Source: a virus
DNA: 21,404 bases
IMG/VR virus record: IMGVR_UViG_3300030101_001818
Location: 1-21,404 of that record
Direction: 5' to 3' (one strand)
Shown: in pieces, positions 3,503 to 13,708 of the stretch
How positions within the stretch are numbered: the stretch's first letter is position 1
Layout: every line of letters starts with the position of its first letter
Translations under genes and position numbers: made by a program
Notes under the pieces: generated by a model
Databases searched by the model: none
What the model saw: the letters and a program-made list of their open reading frames with translations, nothing else
What the model was told of the DNA's origin: nothing

Positions 3503-6500
3503 TTAAATTCCGTGTTTTTTTAATTCATTTAATACGTTATAGTTACCTTTCTTACTATAGAACCTTCTAAGTTCTCTATCTTTAATACGTGCATATAAAT
3601 CAGGGTTATTAGCACGTAATTTAGCTATTGCTTTTTTCTTTTCGTTTAAAAATATACTTTGTACTTGTAAATAAAACCGTTGATCTACAGGACGCATACC
3701 TTCTCTTGAAAGTAAACCATCATCTTTATACTGTTGTACAGCATCTTTCCACCGTTTACTCGTAACAAGTGTCTTTAATCTAGCATATAAATTACTTTCA
3801 GCTAAATATTTTTGTAATTCAGATTGTTCAAAAGAATTTAATTCTTCACCTTTCCAAGTTCTCAAAGCCTCTGGTAAATTATAACTAATACTTTGCAACG
3901 CTTCCTTTACAGGATCTCCAGCAGCGTAAGATATAGCAACAGGACTTAATGAGTTCCATAGTTTTAACAATGGATTAGAAGTATATGGTGTAAATCGTTG
4001 AGCTTTATTTCCAGGAGTTAATATATCGTACTTAGGAGCTAAAAATGACTTAAATCCTATGTCTCTTCTTATAGTGGTTTCCCAAAATCCTCTGGCTATT
4101 CTTTCATTTTCATCCATTAAGTTACCTAACTGACCCATAAGACCAGAATAAGGTACTTGTGATCTAACAAATTTTGCTGCTATCCTACCTAATTGTATCT
4201 CACTGATATTACCACTAAATACTTGAGCAAGATCGTCAACACCTGCTAACATAGATTTATCAACTATTACACTAGCAAACATAAATTGTATTTTTTGTAA
4301 CATATCATCTCTAACTGCTTCTCCTAACGAGTTTTGATAACCAGCTACGTTAGCAACAGCAGATAAAATAGTGTTATATGGTTCCATATCACCATAAGAT
4401 ATGTAAGTGTTACCTATTTTAAAAGAGTTAGGTTGTATTTTATTGTTTCTCCAGTGATCTCTAGTTTCTTTATCGTATGGTAGTGTACCTGTCATGTTAC
4501 CTGTTACAGCAGCAGTAAACGCCATAAAACTTAACATAGTACCTGTTGCTACTCTACCTTTCATTAAAGCTATAGCTTGAGGTATATCTTCTTTTCTAAT
4601 ACCGTACTCTATCTCTAATTGTTTAGCATTTTTACCACCATTATTAGCAAATTCCATTAAATCTTTGTATTTTTTATTGAATCTAGCTAATCCAGGGGTA
4701 TGTTGCCATGTTAAATCTAACGCATTAAAACCTGTACGCACAAATGGAAAGAAATTTTTAAAACCAGTTATTGATGAAAGTGATTCTAAACCTTTTAAAT
4801 TACCACTTAATGGTTTAGTTAAGGCAGTTTCGTCACCTGCTAGGGCTGCAGCTCTGTCTGATACAACCCACATATCATATGCGTCTTTTTTAAATATTTG
4901 TTCTCTAAAATTCTTTTCAGTTCTAGTTGCTACTTCCACTACGTCATCAAGATCTACACCATCATCTATTGCTTTTCTAGCTGCTCTCATACGCATTTCA
5001 AATCTACCAATTAAAGTTCTAGCTAATGCGTCACCTGCACCCATAGCATTTTGTGAATAACGTACCCAAGGTGAGTTGTTAAAATCTAACATAAAATTAG
5101 CTATAGCATAATACGTTTTCTCTGAATCCGTACCATACATTTCTACAAATTTACCTAATTGTTTAAATTCTGCTGAATTTGTTTCTACGTTAAATTTACC
5201 AACATAACTTTGAGCTTTACGGTTTATACCTAAATCCCAGTTATGTCTAAACATTTTAAAACCTTCTGCAAACATTTCACTGATACCATGTAACTGTGCT
5301 GCAGCAATAACCATTTCTTTTTTATTACTTTGTAATGCAGCTCCTACATAAGTTTGAAAAGGACGTAACAATGCAATAAAATTAGTACCAACGATAGCTT
5401 TAATAGGTGTACGTAAACTACTTAATACAGAATTATAAAACATTCCTTTAGCTTGTTCTCTAATACCAGATCTATAAGTTTGACCTTTGTATCTACCACC
5501 TTTTGTTCTTACTTTAACCCATTGCAAAGCATCATCAAGGGTAGTCACGCTACCTCCAGATAAGGCTTGTATTTCCATAAGTGTAGTACGTTCTACATTA
5601 TTACCATTTTTTGCTATTCTATCTAGTTCTTTATAAAACTCATCATACGCCTCATCTATACTAGCTAGTTCACCTTCTATAAGTTTTCTAGCATCCTCTG
5701 GCATAAGTTTGTTTTTAAATCTTTCTAGTGTACTACCTGCCATGTAGCTCATCTTCTTGTACTCTTTTAAGGCTAGTACAAGCGATTTGTTGGCGTGTTG
5801 CATTTGACGAACACCAGCTGCCCCTGGAGGTAGTTCTAGTGCTCCTGTAGCGTATAGAGAAGCTCTTTTAGACAATGTTTGTATAACCATCTCCAAAGCA
5901 ACCTTTTGTTCTGGCGTACCAGTAACAACTTGGTTACCATCAGTCATATAATCTATGTAATTATCCTTTCGTTTAGGATCAAAATAAGACATAAAATTCT
6001 TGTTTGTACCCTCTGCTACGTCAGCATTTACTCTAGAATATAACTCTTCAGATTTACGTAAAATTGCAGCTTGTACTTTCTTATAGTCAAATGAGTTTAA
6101 TTTATTGTCAAAAATTTCGTTGGCTAATTTTTCGGAAAATTCTTTAATAAATTTATAGAGTGACTCACTACCGTCAGCCATCCTTTCTATCTGTCTATGT
6201 ATTAGTACCTGTGAATTAGTTGTACCTTCGTCTAGTACTTCCTTAACAACTCTAGTAGCTTTACCTTGTAAGTCTTTATTATCATCTGGTACAAAGGTTT
6301 TATCCTGTTCACCAAACATATTAGGGTTACGATCTGGGTCAACTTGTTTACTACCAAAAGTATCACTGTAAGTTGCACCTTCTTCATCAAACCAAGGATC
6401 ACCTATTTCTTGACCTTTCTGTACAGCTTTGTTTTCTAAATCTTCAGCTCTAGGACTTTTGAATCCATCTTTATTTTCAGCATTGTCAAACTCATCAAGG

Positions 6501-9175
6501 TTAGTTGTAATAAAATCATCATCATCAATAAATGGATCCCATCCACCATAACCCTGTTGTTCTAATTCTAATGTATATTTACGTTGCATATTTTCGTAAA
6601 GTTGTTTACGATAATTTGTAAATATACGTCTAGTTTGACTGCCACCTAAACGTGAAGCAACAGAAGCATACAAATCTTTTACAAATATTGCAACCTCTTG
6701 AGTTATACGTTTAAATGTACCTTCGGGAGCTAGCTGATCGTAATTTACCATAAACATGTCAAATTCATCTGACATAGTCTCAGCAAAATATTCGTCTAAA
6801 TTTTTGTAACGATAATTTGAAGGTGTGTATCTACCTTTTTTAAATAACTCTACATCTTTACCACCTGCAGCTAACCATTTAGCTTTACGATTTTTAAACT
6901 CTACACCTAATTTTTCAACATCTTTTGCAGGTAAATATCTAGATAACGTATGCCACAATTCATGTATCATAGTTTGGGTAAAATCACCTGTTTCAAATAT
7001 TTTTCTACGTATTTCTACAAGTCTATTACCAAAATTAAACCTACCTTGAACACCTAATTTATTTGTTATAGATAAAGATACATCACCGAAAAACCTATCA
7101 CCCATCATGTTGATAAAATCTTCGATAGCTTCTACTTCAGATGGATCTAAACCATCAATAACAAATTTTTTCCTTAATCTATTTATTAAATATTCTGCCC
7201 CACGACTACCTTCTAATCCTCTACCAGCTTCTATGTTTGTTTGCCAAGGTTTCCTAGGTGGTCGTACTCCAAACCCTCTACTGTCAAATATAGGTAAATC
7301 AGTAGATACGTCTGGATCTAAGGTGTTTCTTAAACGATATTTGTCAAGTTCTATCTGAGTATCTGGGTTCCAGTATACTCTAACTTTATGTGTTTTCTCA
7401 CCATGATTAGCTGTGTACTGTATACCTCCATACCCTAACTCTTGTAAGTCAGAATGTATAGTATCTAATACCTGTGTAACTTCTTCACGAGGATATAACT
7501 GTTCATCTTTAATTCTTTGGACATAATCAGAATAACTTATACTACCCTCTGTTGGCCATGCAGACACAAACTCTGGGTTGCCTTCGGGGTTTCTAAGTCC
7601 TGGGCCTAGCTCTAAACCCTTATCTGTTATTCTTTCTTGAAGAAACCCTGCACGTTTAAATGCAGCAATTTCTGGATCTGTGCCATCAAAATCAAATTGT
7701 CTATCAGCATCAAAAAAGTTTACAGGTTCTCTTTCGTTAACTCTGTACATAACTTTTTTCTTACCACTAGCATCCATGCTAATTGTAAGTCCCTGTCCTT
7801 GAGGTCTAGCATCAGCAGCAACCGTAATATCATCAACAGTATAAAAACCATTGCCCATTAAGTTATCATCAGACCATCTACGACCATCTCTTACATAATA
7901 TGGAAAATCTCCTGGGAGTCCTCTACCACTACCATGAAAGAAAATATCATTGCCAATAACATCTTGTAAATTACCTTTAGTAAGGTGTACATACATCTTA
8001 CCTAGTTCTTCATCTAAATTACCAACAACATGATCTTCCCAAGGATCTGGAGGTATACCACGACCATCAACTGCAGCATCTTTTTTTAATTCTTCACGTT
8101 GTTTATACTCATTTCTAACTTCGTTTTTTAACCTTTCATCTAACACACCATTTGCATGTACGTTAGCTTCATCTATGCTTGCTCCAGATTTACGTTTACG
8201 TATAGCAGCAAACCTAGCTTTACCGAAAGCTATTAAATAATGAGCAACTATGTTAGCCCCAGCCCCCGCAAAGACAGTTTTAATTCTAGCTGTCCAAGGA
8301 TTATCCTCATCTGGATCAACAGACAAAAATTCTGAAAGTGGTAGCCAAGGTGCATACTCATCTATTAAATTTGCTAGGTTACCATAATCAGAGGATGATG
8401 ATATAAGATCAGCAACACCCCCTTCAAATGCTATGTTACTTAATTTAGCAGTATTTTTTGGTAAAAATTTAATAAATCTAGCACCTTTTCTTGTTTGTGC
8501 AAGTTTACTTATAATAGGTGTTTTACCTTTTACTGCCCCTGCAAGTAAATTTTTACCTATTTTGTTCTGTATTACAGCAGCTTTTCGTAATGTAGTAGCA
8601 GGTTTTAGTACCTTTGCAGCACCTCCTGTAGCATATAGTAGAAAACCAAACTCTGATAATCCTCTAACTAAATCACCATAACCAGATAAAGTCTCAGGTT
8701 GAAACCTATCTGGTACATTTAAGATTCCAGGTTGTGCCCCACCTATACCAAGTTCTTGTGCTTTTCTATACTCTTTAAAATTAAATGGGTTATTACCGTA
8801 TGATTGGTTCAAACCCATAATTTTGTTAGCAGTAGCAGAAATTGTATCTCCCGTAAGATCTAAAAAACTACCTGCACTTTCAACAGCATCTGTTAAACCA
8901 CCATAAACACCTTTGGCAGTTTCACCTATAAAATTTACAGGGCCATCTGGTAGCATCCCTTGTGGATTTTCACCAGCTTTAGCCTCTTCTTCTTGTTTTG
9001 TAATAATAGCAGCAGCAGCATCTCTTTCTTGAGCTTGCTCTAAAAAGTATGCTTCATCTTCACTATGTTTATTAAGGTCAGAATCTGTCCTATCATTCCA
9101 ACGTTCGGGGTCGTTGACCGTAGTCTCCCCTTGCTCCTCGACATTATCGAGTCGCATCAATTCATCTTCGTTCAT
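3503..9175 (-). CDS. Giant internal core/ejection protein, gp16-like, with ART-like and zinc peptidase domains
   Basis: An 1890-residue protein in the position of T7 gene 16, between the gp15-like and fibre genes; T7 gp16 has 1318 residues. Residues 1-400 are mixed helical with hydrophobic stretches near 173-190 and 301-318, and I see no lytic transglycosylase motif. Residues about 405-612 look like an ADP-ribosyltransferase of the polyvalent-protein type: IFFHGSGRG (H414), GNGFYTVDD (G443-Y445), then LGYGGIQYT and VRVYWNPDTQIEL. Residues about 670-810 look like a zinc metallopeptidase: HELWH at 738-742 and a possible third ligand in NLDEYFAE (E795 or E799). Residues 1240-1620 contain a hydrophobic run at 1542-1560 and a segment (NFFPFVRTGFNALDLTWQHT, near 1475) that I associate with large ejected phage proteins. 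Known for the family: gp16 is ejected and spans the inner membrane. Inferred: this version may also carry effector enzymes into the cell. The two domain calls are by eye. Confidence 0.85.
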   Translation of the reverse strand: MNEDELMRLDNVEEQGETTVNDPERWNDRTDSDLNKHSEDEAYFLEQAQERDAAAAIITKQEEEAKAGENPQGMLPDGPVNFIGETAKGVYGGLTDAVESAGSFLDLTGDTISATANKIMGLNQSYGNNPFNFKEYRKAQELGIGGAQPGILNVPDRFQPETLSGYGDLVRGLSEFGFLLYATGGAAKVLKPATTLRKAAVIQNKIGKNLLAGAVKGKTPIISKLAQTRKGARFIKFLPKNTAKLSNIAFEGGVADLISSSSDYGNLANLIDEYAPWLPLSEFLSVDPDEDNPWTARIKTVFAGAGANIVAHYLIAFGKARFAAIRKRKSGASIDEANVHANGVLDERLKNEVRNEYKQREELKKDAAVDGRGIPPDPWEDHVVGNLDEELGKMYVHLTKGNLQDVIGNDIFFHGSGRGLPGDFPYYVRDGRRWSDDNLMGNGFYTVDDITVAADARPQGQGLTISMDASGKKKVMYRVNEREPVNFFDADRQFDFDGTDPEIAAFKRAGFLQERITDKGLELGPGLRNPEGNPEFVSAWPTEGSISYSDYVQRIKDEQLYPREEVTQVLDTIHSDLQELGYGGIQYTANHGEKTHKVRVYWNPDTQIELDKYRLRNTLDPDVSTDLPIFDSRGFGVRPPRKPWQTNIEAGRGLEGSRGAEYLINRLRKKFVIDGLDPSEVEAIEDFINMMGDRFFGDVSLSITNKLGVQGRFNFGNRLVEIRRKIFETGDFTQTMIHELWHTLSRYLPAKDVEKLGVEFKNRKAKWLAAGGKDVELFKKGRYTPSNYRYKNLDEYFAETMSDEFDMFMVNYDQLAPEGTFKRITQEVAIFVKDLYASVASRLGGSQTRRIFTNYRKQLYENMQRKYTLELEQQGYGGWDPFIDDDDFITTNLDEFDNAENKDGFKSPRAEDLENKAVQKGQEIGDPWFDEEGATYSDTFGSKQVDPDRNPNMFGEQDKTFVPDDNKDLQGKATRVVKEVLDEGTTNSQVLIHRQIERMADGSESLYKFIKEFSEKLANEIFDNKLNSFDYKKVQAAILRKSEELYSRVNADVAEGTNKNFMSYFDPKRKDNYIDYMTDGNQVVTGTPEQKVALEMVIQTLSKRASLYATGALELPPGAAGVRQMQHANKSLVLALKEYKKMSYMAGSTLERFKNKLMPEDARKLIEGELASIDEAYDEFYKELDRIAKNGNNVERTTLMEIQALSGGSVTTLDDALQWVKVRTKGGRYKGQTYRSGIREQAKGMFYNSVLSSLRTPIKAIVGTNFIALLRPFQTYVGAALQSNKKEMVIAAAQLHGISEMFAEGFKMFRHNWDLGINRKAQSYVGKFNVETNSAEFKQLGKFVEMYGTDSEKTYYAIANFMLDFNNSPWVRYSQNAMGAGDALARTLIGRFEMRMRAARKAIDDGVDLDDVVEVATRTEKNFREQIFKKDAYDMWVVSDRAAALAGDETALTKPLSGNLKGLESLSSITGFKNFFPFVRTGFNALDLTWQHTPGLARFNKKYKDLMEFANNGGKNAKQLEIEYGIRKEDIPQAIALMKGRVATGTMLSFMAFTAAVTGNMTGTLPYDKETRDHWRNNKIQPNSFKIGNTYISYGDMEPYNTILSAVANVAGYQNSLGEAVRDDMLQKIQFMFASVIVDKSMLAGVDDLAQVFSGNISEIQLGRIAAKFVRSQVPYSGLMGQLGNLMDENERIARGFWETTIRRDIGFKSFLAPKYDILTPGNKAQRFTPYTSNPLLKLWNSLSPVAISYAAGDPVKEALQSISYNLPEALRTWKGEELNSFEQSELQKYLAESNLYARLKTLVTSKRWKDAVQQYKDDGLLSREGMRPVDQRFYLQVQSIFLNEKKKAIAKLRANNPDLYARIKDRELRRFYSKKGNYNVLNELKKHGI

Positions 9176-9179
9176 GTTT

Positions 9180-12100
9180 TTAACGTTCTAAGTTACATGA
9201 TCCCGTAGGATCCCAACTCCAATGCCACGCTTCGATTTCTCCAGCTTTGTTACCGCTGTCCATGTCTAAACTTGGTGTACCTGTGTGTGGACATAAATTA
9301 TAATTTTTATAATTATCTAATAACCATTGATAATCTGCCTTAGTAGCCCAATCTAAATCTAAGGATACACCTGCGTTATGATTAGATTTTCCAGGCTCTT
9401 TAACATCTTTCTTTAAATTTTTCTTTTCTTTTTCTTTTAATAAGTTTGCTTGTTGTTTATTAGTTCTGTAACCGTCATTTATACCAAACTTATGACCGTT
9501 TGCATTTGCATCTTGGAAGAAACGATACCAGTCGTTGTAAGCATCTTTTCTAATAAATACTCTACCTTGAGTTCTATCATAAGCATTAGGGAAACCACGT
9601 ATACCTATCAAATCGTCTTTAGATATGTTACCTACAAGATCACCTCCAACATCATATCGTTTAGAATCTACACTTAATTTCATATCTAAACTTTTAAGGT
9701 ATTTATCAGCTATATCTAAATTAGCAAACTCTGGTTGTTGTACTAATACATGTATCAAAGCTTTATCTTTAGTAACAAAACGACCTCGACTAAATAACTC
9801 CCCAGCCTCTGCACTAATTGCATTGTACTTTTCATCTCCTAAAACTCTACGTAATGAACTATAAAATATACCAGCATTTATATTTCCTTTACCTTCAAGT
9901 TGTTGAAAAATGTTTCTTTTATCTTCTAAATTTTGTTTAAATTTTATATATGTATTATATCTTTCATTAACAACACGAGTAGGATTTTTAGACAACATAC
10001 GTTGTAGTAAATTACTAACAACCCCTGTTTCTATAGGAGCAACATCAATAAATTGAGGTGGGATACCTTCAGCGTCTAACTTAGATAATTGTTCTAATAT
10101 ACCTTCAAAGTTATTTGCTGGTTCTTCATTATATACTGAACCTTCTGGGTGAATATAACTTTCATTAATACTGTAGTCAACCTTAAAGGTACTACCATTC
10201 ATATTAAATTCTTTTAATAAAGGCACGATAGCAGAGGTATCTCCACTTTTGTATGATGCCAAAACTTTAGATGTAAACATACGATATTCAGTACTATTCC
10301 AGTTGTTAACATCACCTGTTGCCATATAAGCTGCAACCATACGTATTCTAATATTATCGTTATTAGTAAGTTCTTTTGTTAATTCTAAACCTTTTCTAAT
10401 TTTAGCATTTAATACAGTTTCTAATAATTTAGGGTCAGCTAATAACTCATCGAACTTCATAGCAGATAGACCCATTTCGTTTAAAATAACATTTGCTTCT
10501 TCTCCATTTAAAGGTAATTTACCTTCTTCAGTCACCATAGATGACATAAGATTATAAGGAGAGAAAAACCCTATTCCCATTAAGGTTCTATTAAAACTTT
10601 CTGTTTCACCGCTAACAAGAGCTTTTTTTTGGTTTAAATCTAATTCTTCCCAAGCATCAATTCTTTGTTGTGTCGCTTCATCCCATTTTTTAACTAATGA
10701 TACACCTGCTATGGGTTCTAATAACCTTGCTTGCTGGTTGTATATTAGTTCAGCTGGTATAGTGCCTTCTGAAACGAGCGACATTTTATGAAAGATTGGG
10801 TGTAACTCTCCTTCGTTATTAAGAGCAAAATAAGCCAGATCATTCTTATCAAAAAATAATTTTTTACTAAATAAATTTGGACTTTCAGTATTATTAAATA
10901 TTTCAGTAACTTGAGATAATTTATTTTTAGCTTTAACAATTATGTCATCGCCACTAAGTATAGGTTTAGCTTTACTATTATATATACTATCATTTACCCA
11001 ACCGTATTGATTTACTGATAAATCAACATCACCTGCTTGCCATCCATCTTCAGCTTGACCATTCCAACCTTTAAGTTGACTTTTCCAATAACGGGCAGAT
11101 TGATCTAACGCCTCATTTAAAGTCATATCTGTGTTAGCAACATACTTACGTGCTTCAGATAATATCAAAGGACTGATAAAATCAGTAAACCTTGCTAGCT
11201 GTAGCTCAGCATCTTTTTCACTTAAAGAACCTGGGCCTACATGTTCATCAAACATTACTTCAGCTAAATCTGTTAAATCTTTTGTGTAACCTTGATGTTT
11301 TACTGCAGCTCCAGGTTCATTCTTATAAGGGTCACCTATCTTACCATCTTTTATATATGCTGCTAGCACTGCGGGGTCTATAAGTTCTAAGTTAATAGAA
11401 GATAAAGGTATGATTCCAAATTTTTGGTTTTTCTCATTACCAACATTATACTTCTTTTCTAGTCCAAGAAGTACCTGTACACTTTGATTTTCGTCATAAG
11501 GTTCTAAACCCTCATAATTATCAATGTTATTAGTTAATATAGTTTTAGCCCAGTACTTACCATAGTTCTCATTCATCACTTTGTTTAGTGCTAGAGCTTT
11601 ACCAGTAGGGTCTCCTTTAAATTCAATATTAATTTTTTCTAAAGTTTGCTTAAGATTGATTTTCTTACCTTCTATTTCTTTAGCTGCTCTTTCATACTGT
11701 TCTGCTAACATAGCAGCTTGTAACTGTTCCCTATTAATAGCACCTGCCATTAGCTCACTAAGAGATGATAACTTCATTGTGTTACCTTCCATCTTAGATA
11801 CACCTTTTACATAAAACAAAGGTTTTTCAAAAAAATCTAAAATATCGTTCTGGTCATCTTGATTAGCTAAACTTCCATTATATAAAAATGAACCTTTATC
11901 AGTTAACATTTCTATAAGTTTTGCTTTAGCAGCTTGGTTGTAACTACCCTCTACACCAGCCATTTTCATGGTAGATGGTAATATATTGAGAGCGTGTTGT
12001 ATAACAGCAACAGCTTTAGCTTGCCCTACATCAGTCTCTAACTCTGCAAAATTAGTTTCAAATTTAACTTTTAAATCATTTAATCTTTCTTGTGCTAACT

Positions 12101-12947
12101 CAACCTGTTCTTTTTGAAACTCTTTTTGTTGAAATAAATTAGTTCTTTCTATAATAGGATTTATTAAATGTTTGTTAACAAGAAATTTACTAAAACCATT
12201 ACCTTCTTTAGCTATATAGTCAGACTGTACACGAGCTAAAATTTTATCTCTTACATCTTGATTTTTAATATTATAATAATCACCAATTCTATAACGTTCA
12301 CCTTCATGTTCTACTTCTAAATTCTGTATTTCATAATCAGAGCTATTAGTCAAAACACTATCTCTGTATGCGTCCCAACCAGTAGCAGCTTCCATAAGCA
12401 TACCTTTACGGTATCCTCTAGCAAAGTTAGAATTTTGTTTTTTAAGATTAAGTAACCTATACTCTGTGCGTAAATCGTTTTGTAAATCTTTTTGATATTT
12501 TTCTTTTATTTGTTCTGTTTTAAATTCTGTTTCTTCTACAATTTTATTAGATCTTTGCTCTAGTTCTAATTCTTGTAAATCATTAAGACGTACTTTGTCT
12601 AAAGCATCTGCATCACCCTGTTGTGCTAATATACCTTGATTAATACCATCTTGCATTTGAGCATCAAATACAGGAGCAACAACATTTTTTATTGTACTAT
12701 CTAGAAAACCGTCTAATTCCTTACTAAATTTACGTAAATTGTTTAGTTCGTATGTATCTGCTGCAGCTTCTAATTTACTTACACGACCCATTTCTGTAAT
12801 CTGTGCAGCTGCTGCTTTGTTAAAATCTTTAAGAGTTTTAGAGTTTTCTTTTTCTAAATTTTTAGCAAGGTCTTTAAACTGTTTAGAATCATCGTTTGCA
12901 ATTCTTTGTCTAAAACCACTAAATTGTGTGCTTTTTTGATATGCCAT
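9180..12947 (-). CDS. Internal core/ejection protein, gp15-like, with C-terminal M15 murein peptidase domain
   Basis: This 1255-residue protein lies where T7 gene 15 lies, four bases from the gp16-like gene and two from the gp14-like gene; T7 gp15 has 747 residues. Residues 1-1100 are highly charged and mostly helical, with Glu/Lys/Gln-rich segments near 90-180 and 270-310, as expected of a core cylinder subunit. The last 130 residues form a zinc D,D-peptidase of the VanY/M15 type: GYRT at 1159-1162, SNHNAGVSLD with ligands H1190 and D1197, and EAWHW with catalytic E1239 and ligand H1242. Such enzymes cut peptide cross-links of peptidoglycan, so the protein probably opens the cell wall on ejection. 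An AAGGAG-type ribosome site lies inside the end of the gp14-like gene, about 13 bases before the ATG. It could also act in lysis, but fusion to a virion protein favours entry. Confidence 0.88.
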   Translation of the reverse strand: MAYQKSTQFSGFRQRIANDDSKQFKDLAKNLEKENSKTLKDFNKAAAAQITEMGRVSKLEAAADTYELNNLRKFSKELDGFLDSTIKNVVAPVFDAQMQDGINQGILAQQGDADALDKVRLNDLQELELEQRSNKIVEETEFKTEQIKEKYQKDLQNDLRTEYRLLNLKKQNSNFARGYRKGMLMEAATGWDAYRDSVLTNSSDYEIQNLEVEHEGERYRIGDYYNIKNQDVRDKILARVQSDYIAKEGNGFSKFLVNKHLINPIIERTNLFQQKEFQKEQVELAQERLNDLKVKFETNFAELETDVGQAKAVAVIQHALNILPSTMKMAGVEGSYNQAAKAKLIEMLTDKGSFLYNGSLANQDDQNDILDFFEKPLFYVKGVSKMEGNTMKLSSLSELMAGAINREQLQAAMLAEQYERAAKEIEGKKINLKQTLEKINIEFKGDPTGKALALNKVMNENYGKYWAKTILTNNIDNYEGLEPYDENQSVQVLLGLEKKYNVGNEKNQKFGIIPLSSINLELIDPAVLAAYIKDGKIGDPYKNEPGAAVKHQGYTKDLTDLAEVMFDEHVGPGSLSEKDAELQLARFTDFISPLILSEARKYVANTDMTLNEALDQSARYWKSQLKGWNGQAEDGWQAGDVDLSVNQYGWVNDSIYNSKAKPILSGDDIIVKAKNKLSQVTEIFNNTESPNLFSKKLFFDKNDLAYFALNNEGELHPIFHKMSLVSEGTIPAELIYNQQARLLEPIAGVSLVKKWDEATQQRIDAWEELDLNQKKALVSGETESFNRTLMGIGFFSPYNLMSSMVTEEGKLPLNGEEANVILNEMGLSAMKFDELLADPKLLETVLNAKIRKGLELTKELTNNDNIRIRMVAAYMATGDVNNWNSTEYRMFTSKVLASYKSGDTSAIVPLLKEFNMNGSTFKVDYSINESYIHPEGSVYNEEPANNFEGILEQLSKLDAEGIPPQFIDVAPIETGVVSNLLQRMLSKNPTRVVNERYNTYIKFKQNLEDKRNIFQQLEGKGNINAGIFYSSLRRVLGDEKYNAISAEAGELFSRGRFVTKDKALIHVLVQQPEFANLDIADKYLKSLDMKLSVDSKRYDVGGDLVGNISKDDLIGIRGFPNAYDRTQGRVFIRKDAYNDWYRFFQDANANGHKFGINDGYRTNKQQANLLKEKEKKNLKKDVKEPGKSNHNAGVSLDLDWATKADYQWLLDNYKNYNLCPHTGTPSLDMDSGNKAGEIEAWHWSWDPTGSCNLER

Positions 12948-12949
12948 AG

Positions 12950-13708
12950 TTATCCGTTATCTCCTTGTTTACCTCCAAAAATCTCCATACTTGAAAAGTA
13001 ATCTTTTCCACCAAGAGTAGTAGCAGTACCTAATCCAGTACTAATACCACTTAGTATGGGGCCAAGTGCGGATGGTTTACGTGGAGCTTGTTGTTCAATA
13101 GGTCTAGGTGTCATAAATGATGCGTATGGAGCAACAGAGGCAGAAGTTGTAATAGAATTTTTAGCCTTCATATCACCTGAATATTGTGAAAGATCAATAC
13201 CATATTGTTGAATACCGTAATTACGTGTAGCATCAAACACAGTTGCGTCTATTTGTGCTTGTGCAAAACCTAAATCACGTTCAGCTTGATTTAATTCTAA
13301 GAGCATAGATTGTCCAGCTGACATTCCACTAGCAAGTACAGTGCCTTGTGCTTGTATTGCTTTAGCAAGATTTGCTTGACTAGCAAACATCTGCTCGTTT
13401 ATTTTTTCTCTTAATTGCTGATCGTTAGCAACAGTTGCTCTAGTTGCTTCAGCTTGGTTAAGTTCTTTTTGTTTAAAATATGCTGCCCTAGAGGCTGCAT
13501 CTGCTTTTAGTTTCGCTGTAAAGACTTCTCCCTTACGTTGATCCTCATAAGCAGATATTGTAATTTGATTGATATAGTTCTGTCTAGCCATAGCATTGCT
13601 ACGGTTAACAGCATCGACTTGATTTGCATGTTGTCTGTTTTGCTCTGCAATTCCAGCAACAGTCTTAGTCACACCCATACCAATAGCAAATGCTGCTACT
13701 GTACACAT
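12950..13708 (-). CDS. Internal core/ejection protein, gp14-like
   Basis: A 252-residue protein in the T7 gene 14 position. It starts MCTVAAFAIGMGVTKTVAGI, a short hydrophobic N-terminus like that of T7 gp14, followed by a long alanine- and glutamine-rich helical section (residues 20-165) and a proline-rich, flexible C-terminus. In T7 (196 residues) gp14 is ejected first and forms a pore in the outer membrane; the same role is inferred here. The gene overlaps the end of the gp13-like gene by 13 bases and shows no clear Shine-Dalgarno sequence, so coupled translation is likely. Its own 3' end carries the ribosome site for the gp15-like gene. Confidence 0.82.
   Translation of the reverse strand: MCTVAAFAIGMGVTKTVAGIAEQNRQHANQVDAVNRSNAMARQNYINQITISAYEDQRKGEVFTAKLKADAASRAAYFKQKELNQAEATRATVANDQQLREKINEQMFASQANLAKAIQAQGTVLASGMSAGQSMLLELNQAERDLGFAQAQIDATVFDATRNYGIQQYGIDLSQYSGDMKAKNSITTSASVAPYASFMTPRPIEQQAPRKPSALGPILSGISTGLGTATTLGGKDYFSSMEIFGGKQGDNG

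Follow-up and report, generated by a model that had tools for sequence, protein, structure and literature searches.

A predicted peptidoglycan peptidase on an exchangeable C-terminal cassette of a cyanopodovirus gp15-like ejection protein

In T7, the N-terminus of gp16 carries a lytic transglycosylase (SLT) domain, a virion-borne wall hydrolase of the ejected core proteins that is thought to be active at DNA entry. On ejection, T7 gp15 enters the periplasm and builds a tunnel together with gp16 (PMC8954989). gp15 proteins evolve fast, and most assignments rely on gene order and protein size (PMC8954989). In the SP6-like phages K1E and K1-5, a hydrolase has already been located on gp15 and not on gp16: their gp15-like protein has lysozyme activity (PMC8954989). 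The cyanopodovirus locus described here resembles T7 in that a wall hydrolase domain is carried by a putative ejected core protein, and K1E/K1-5 in that this protein is gp15-like and not gp16. Nevertheless, it differs from T7 in the protein used, in the enzyme family and in the bond predicted to be cleaved, and from K1E/K1-5 in that an M15B peptidase, instead of a lysozyme, stands beside a degenerate SLT domain on the same chain. In the open-access literature, we found no report of an M15 domain on a cyanopodovirus gp15, of a disabled SLT domain beside it, or of cassette exchange.

The window, i.e., the whole stretch of DNA that was analysed (21,404 nt, IMGVR_UViG_3300030101_001818), is a cyanopodovirus fragment of the Autographiviridae type and, based on its translation, contains psbA. 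Its genes follow the order capsid (gp10), gp11, gp12, gp13, gp14, gp15, gp16 and gp17, which is a T7-type late structural block. The internal virion proteins are encoded as follows:

12950..13708, minus strand: gp14-like internal virion protein (Pfam T7_gp14 2.1e-6; phrog_15746 1.6e-35)
9180..12947, minus strand: gp15-like internal virion (ejection/tunnel) protein, 1255 aa, between gp14 and gp16
3503..9175, minus strand: gp16-like internal virion protein, 1890 aa (phrog_6651 internal virion protein, 3.8e-251)

The 1255-aa protein was identified as gp15 by synteny, because its gene lies between gp14 and gp16. Outside its M15 part, the protein had no Pfam or PHROG match; a relative with 53% identity (L011) showed a weak blastp match to gp15 of P-SSP10 (7.6e-4). 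The same gene, intact and with 100% protein identity, is present on a separate 34.8 kb contig (L012). A tblastn search of annotated phages with the whole gp15 gave no match; thus, its relatives were taken from IMG/VR. Compared with the relative L009, the window gp15 is 97% identical at residues 1-480, 64% identical at residues 481-720 and again 92-94% identical thereafter, and residues 481-720 (window 10788-11507, minus strand) form an internal mosaic patch relative to L009.

A previous sequence-only reading of this DNA had placed an M15/VanY murein peptidase at the extreme C-terminus of the gp15-like protein. Profile and fold comparisons confirmed this assignment:

9210..9554, minus strand: M15B/VanY zinc-peptidase domain, gp15 residues 1132-1246 (Pfam VanY, fold match, invariant residues)

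The Pfam VanY profile (PF02557) matched gp15 with E=7.5e-10 and 39.1 bits, the curated cut-off being 25. Peptidase_M15_4 (PF13539) was rejected as the family of the domain, since its profile had no match in the window and PF02557 fits. The motifs GYRT (residues 1159-1162), SNHNAGVSLD (1188-1197) and EAWHW (1239-1243) are where that reading had located them, and its residue numbering was correct. These motifs contain the zinc-ligand pattern (SxHxxGxxxD plus a final His) and the catalytic-Glu pattern (ExxH) of M15B/VanY enzymes; H1190, D1197 and H1242 are the predicted zinc ligands, and E1239 is the predicted catalytic base. We looked for the loss of these four residues in relatives and found that they, as well as R1161 and S1188, are invariant in 9/9 of the M15-bearing gp15s compared, whose M15 domains show identities down to 26%. 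A search of PDB sequences with the domain returned LdcB/YodJ chains at ~1e-4. In the AlphaFold2 model of gp15 residues 640-1255, the mean pLDDT was 77, with values mostly of 80-94 in the M15 domain, and Foldseek matched this model to LdcB, VanY, VanXY and Ply500 with a probability of 1.00 and TM-scores by target of about 0.4-0.6. The dN/dS ratio in the domain is about 0.3. The assignment of the last ~125 residues of gp15 to the M15B/VanY peptidases is thus far beyond chance, and on these sequence grounds the domain is predicted to cleave peptidoglycan peptides.

Ply500, LdcB and VanY share their fold, Pfam family and zinc/catalytic motif with the gp15 domain, but they are soluble endolysins or host enzymes, whereas the gp15 domain forms a cassette at the C-terminus of a virion ejection protein. 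The closest solved structures, LdcB and VanY, belong to carboxypeptidases, and enzymes of this kind would leave the wall unopened. Since carboxypeptidases are among the structural neighbours, the main rival to a wall-opening role is a D,D- or L,D-carboxypeptidase activity, by which the domain would trim stem peptides without opening the wall alone and would condition the wall locally or limit cross-linking during ejection. The best structural and sequence matches of the domain (LdcB, YodJ and VanY) agree with such trimming. However, the endolysin peptidase Ply500 matches as well, and sister phages hold a lysozyme-like enzyme at the same position, suggesting selection for wall cutting. We consider trimming unlikely and favor wall opening.

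Upstream of the peptidase on the same chain, we identified a second, degenerate hydrolase domain:

10239..10712, minus strand: degenerate lytic-transglycosylase (SLT) domain, gp15 residues ~746-903 (profile-profile comparison, alignment, HMM)

The first HMM of this region, built under the name "9515 C-terminus", was initially taken as a gp15-specific domain, a view given up once SLT became apparent in the alignment. As window-type sequences had entered the iterations of that HMM, the comparison was redone with intact SLTs only and with profile-profile searches. The region matched the intact gp15 SLTs of relatives with a probability of 99.5% (E=3.6e-23) in the profile-profile comparison. An HMM made from intact SLTs alone matched window gp15 residues 832-890 with an E-value of 1e-4 and the relatives L044, L045 and L075 with E-values of ~1e-8 to 1e-9, against a background of at least 0.4. 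Comparing a profile of the intact gp15 SLTs with T7 gp16 as a single sequence was too insensitive; therefore, the domain was named after its motifs and after Pfam SLT matches in two relatives, L049 (8.3e-5, above the cut-off) and L237 (0.00095, below the cut-off). The MltE matches of the gp15 model were weak (E~2) and carry no weight for this reading.

In the alignment, the active-site segment [Q/K]ES...GKYQ is present in 20/20 intact SLT proteins and in 0/18 window-type proteins. In the window gp15, the deleted segment lies between the Glu position (~807/808) and the GKYQ motif. The catalytic-Glu position is occupied by Glu in the window and L009 and by Asp or other residues in the remaining window-type sequences. 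Because the active-site segment is missing from all 18 aligned window-type sequences, the remnant was taken as inactive. The dN/dS ratio of the remnant between the window and L009 is about 0.2, and the domain, while apparently inactive, seems to have been kept under purifying selection, probably as a structural part.

To place these domains among relatives, gp16-based IMG/VR searches and annotated phages were combined, which yielded 195 loci with a gp15/gp16 pair, duplicates included; an alignment of gp16s from all cyanopodoviruses proved too diverse for use as a search query. The gp15 C-termini were classed by local profile models. An intact SLT domain is located on gp15 itself in 28 related loci, corresponding to 26 non-redundant gp15s. 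In the window clade, the C-terminal position is held by M15 in most gp15s and by a lysozyme-like domain, "GH_TIP37" (PHROG endolysin), in one sub-clade; GH_TIP37 is also found on gp15 of S-TIP37 and some others. In the Syn5/P60 group, gp15 carries a Phage_lysozyme2-like domain, which is above the Pfam cut-off in S-CBP2 and below it in P60. S-CBP1 and DSL-LC07 have a glucosaminidase plus an M23-like domain on gp15, and S-RIP2 has Hydrolase_2. No hydrolase was recognised by the profile models used in about 76 non-redundant gp15s, most of them from the P-SSP7 group (L097-L176), and neither gp15 nor gp16 of P-SSP7 had a Pfam hydrolase match. At the level of these models, a predicted wall hydrolase sits on gp15 in many cyanopodoviruses, not demonstrably in all.

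Other arrangements were also observed. In three loci (L079:9233-9724, L082:9448-9771 and L002:8292-8806), SLT is encoded by a small ORF of its own that lies between gp15 and gp16; L002 is NATL2A-133, in which this ORF is split over two frames. S-CBP2 has an M23 peptidase (3.5e-8) on an additional ORF of 1051 aa (L020:5531-8683), located between its gp15-like gene and a gp16-like gene that is short (773 aa). In L209, L213 and L239, gp15 contains three hydrolase-like regions in series (a Lyz2-like part, a lysozyme-like region and an M23-like region).

The sequence-only reading had also noted the lack of a transglycosylase in gp16, which holds at the sequence-profile level. Pfam SLT matched 0/21 cyanopodovirus-type gp16s (the window and 20 relatives), whereas the T7 gp16 control, whose N-terminal transglycosylase that reading had correctly stated, gave 1.7e-31. 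A profile of the gp16 N-terminus had no match to the intact SLTs, and contig-wide searches found no SLT on the sister contig of the window phage or on the contig of a relative. The structural model of the window gp16 had a mean pLDDT of 49, and its fold search was not significant.

From the contrast with T7, that reading had concluded that wall opening moved in the window lineage from a gp16 transglycosylase to a gp15 peptidase, with a change from glycan to peptide cleavage. The presence of SLT on T7 gp16 and its absence from the detectable domains of the window gp16 agree with such a move. Nevertheless, SLT is equally undetected in the other cyanopodovirus-type gp16s, sister phages have it intact on gp15, and the window gp15 keeps an inactivated copy at that place; we regard the move as very improbable. 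The change of chemistry itself can be retained, since the predicted activity of the M15 domain differs from that of its glycan-cleaving relatives. Judging from the sequences, it would have occurred in place on gp15, from SLT (glycan) to M15 (predicted peptide cleavage), without a transfer from gp16 in this lineage.

The window gp16 contains two inserts:

7271..7993, minus strand: gp16 insert, residues ~395-635, with ART-like H-Y-D motifs (FFHGSG, GNGFYT, VRVYWNPD), based on alignment and motif only
6536..7228, minus strand: second gp16 insert, residues ~650-880, with the zincin motif HELWH...DEYFAE, conserved in the window clade

ART and zincin domain types have been described in injected polyvalent proteins of phages (PMC5512222). 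The gp16 inserts resemble these by motif only; they had no Pfam match, and the fold search with the low-confidence model was not significant. The ~500-aa insert region (~395-880; window 6536-7993, minus strand) is absent from 9515-10a and the SLT-bearing relatives. ART without zincin is found in gp16 of L035, L036, L044, L045, L066-L068, L075 and L076.

Comparison of the M15-bearing and lysozyme-bearing gp15s showed that their homology ends just past a ...(Q/E)PEFA motif, at about residue 1076, which defines the exchangeable unit in the window:

9183..9722, minus strand: C-terminal exchangeable cassette, gp15 residues ~1076-1255, starting just past the conserved ...LVQQPEFA

With its start at ~9722, this unit is slightly longer than the span first noted (9180-9590). 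L044 and L045, which have near-identical gp16s, are about 94-97% identical in the flanking parts of gp15 that were compared and only 49% identical in M15; the L045 M15 domain is closer to that of L075 (53%) than to that of L044. Within the nearest clade, the M15 cassette is swapped for a lysozyme-like domain. A full SLT was never found together with an M15 or GH_TIP37 cassette among the surveyed gp15s, and every M15-bearing gp15 of the window clade has a partial SLT. In a quick gp16 tree with some long branches, the M15 rows are spread over several branches of a 15-row clade with good support, and the lysozyme-like group is nested within it; by parsimony, M15 would have come first and been replaced once by the lysozyme-like domain.

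The gp15s of L038 and L039 end at the PEFA motif without a cassette, and that of L073 ends near the corresponding place. In these three, a degenerate SLT is present and no cassette or wall hydrolase was detected; thus, either some phages do without a hydrolase on gp15 or it sometimes escapes recognition.

The nearest M15 domains outside this group are located in large proteins adjoining the baseplate hub of the cyanomyoviruses S-SSM4 and ACG-2014d. In these hub neighbours, M15 was found with E-values of 3e-21 and 7e-21, respectively, and a lysozyme-like domain on the adjacent protein with E-values of 3e-41 and 2e-19. These hub-region "endolysin" proteins have, on adjacent virion genes, M15 and lysozyme-like domains homologous to the podovirus cassettes. 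However, these cyanomyoviruses are long-tailed and carry both enzymes at once, whereas each gp15 of the podovirus clade has one or the other. The location next to the hub, an apparent entry apparatus, is consistent with an entry role.

This location also bears on whether M15 serves mainly late host lysis, with the late-made gp15 doubling as an endolysin. A peptidase M15 reportedly serves for lysis in HTVC010P-type pelagiphages (PMC10504331), which supports this alternative, and neither an Amidase_2 nor a Phage_lysozyme gene was detected in the 34.8 kb contig of the phage (G001) or in the 42.8 kb contig of the 53% relative (G002), although both contigs are incomplete and these two families were the only ones searched. 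In contrast, M15 is fused to a 1255-aa core protein within the gp14-gp15-gp16 block, its slot is common to M15 and the lysozyme-like domain, and its nearest relatives adjoin the hub. A main role in lysis is a lesser rival than trimming, and we consider it quite improbable.

We estimate a probability of roughly 70% that M15 is an entry-phase peptidoglycan peptidase, carried as an exchangeable C-terminal cassette on the ejected gp15 after the SLT domain lost its active site. By analogy with T7, gp15 would be packaged in the head and ejected into the periplasm at infection. Its M15 tip would then cut the stem-peptide network along the path of the tunnel, and the cut stem peptides would let the gp15/gp16 conduit cross the wall. 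The older, glycan-cleaving SLT of gp15 would have lost its active-site segment and stayed as a probable structural part, and wall cutting would have passed to the cassette past the QPEFA junction, either M15 or, in one sub-clade, the lysozyme-like domain. It also seems reasonably likely that gp15 of cyanopodoviruses has, at its C-terminus, a general slot at which wall hydrolases can dock interchangeably. The built-in transglycosylase of the window clade would then be disabled and kept as a scaffold, behind which peptidase or lysozyme-like modules, also found in the cyanomyovirus hub-region proteins, would plug in.

Little is known about how short-tailed cyanophages get across the cyanobacterial wall, and this locus provides a testable answer, in which the enzyme would be located on gp15 and be exchangeable between phages. 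The switch of chemistry on gp15 would have left the old active site visible as a deletion. The natural swaps, such as that between L044 and L045 or that of M15 and the lysozyme-like domain, can be used to ask whether the wall chemistry of the host selects the enzyme. The same two modules appear to be in use by short- and long-tailed cyanophages.
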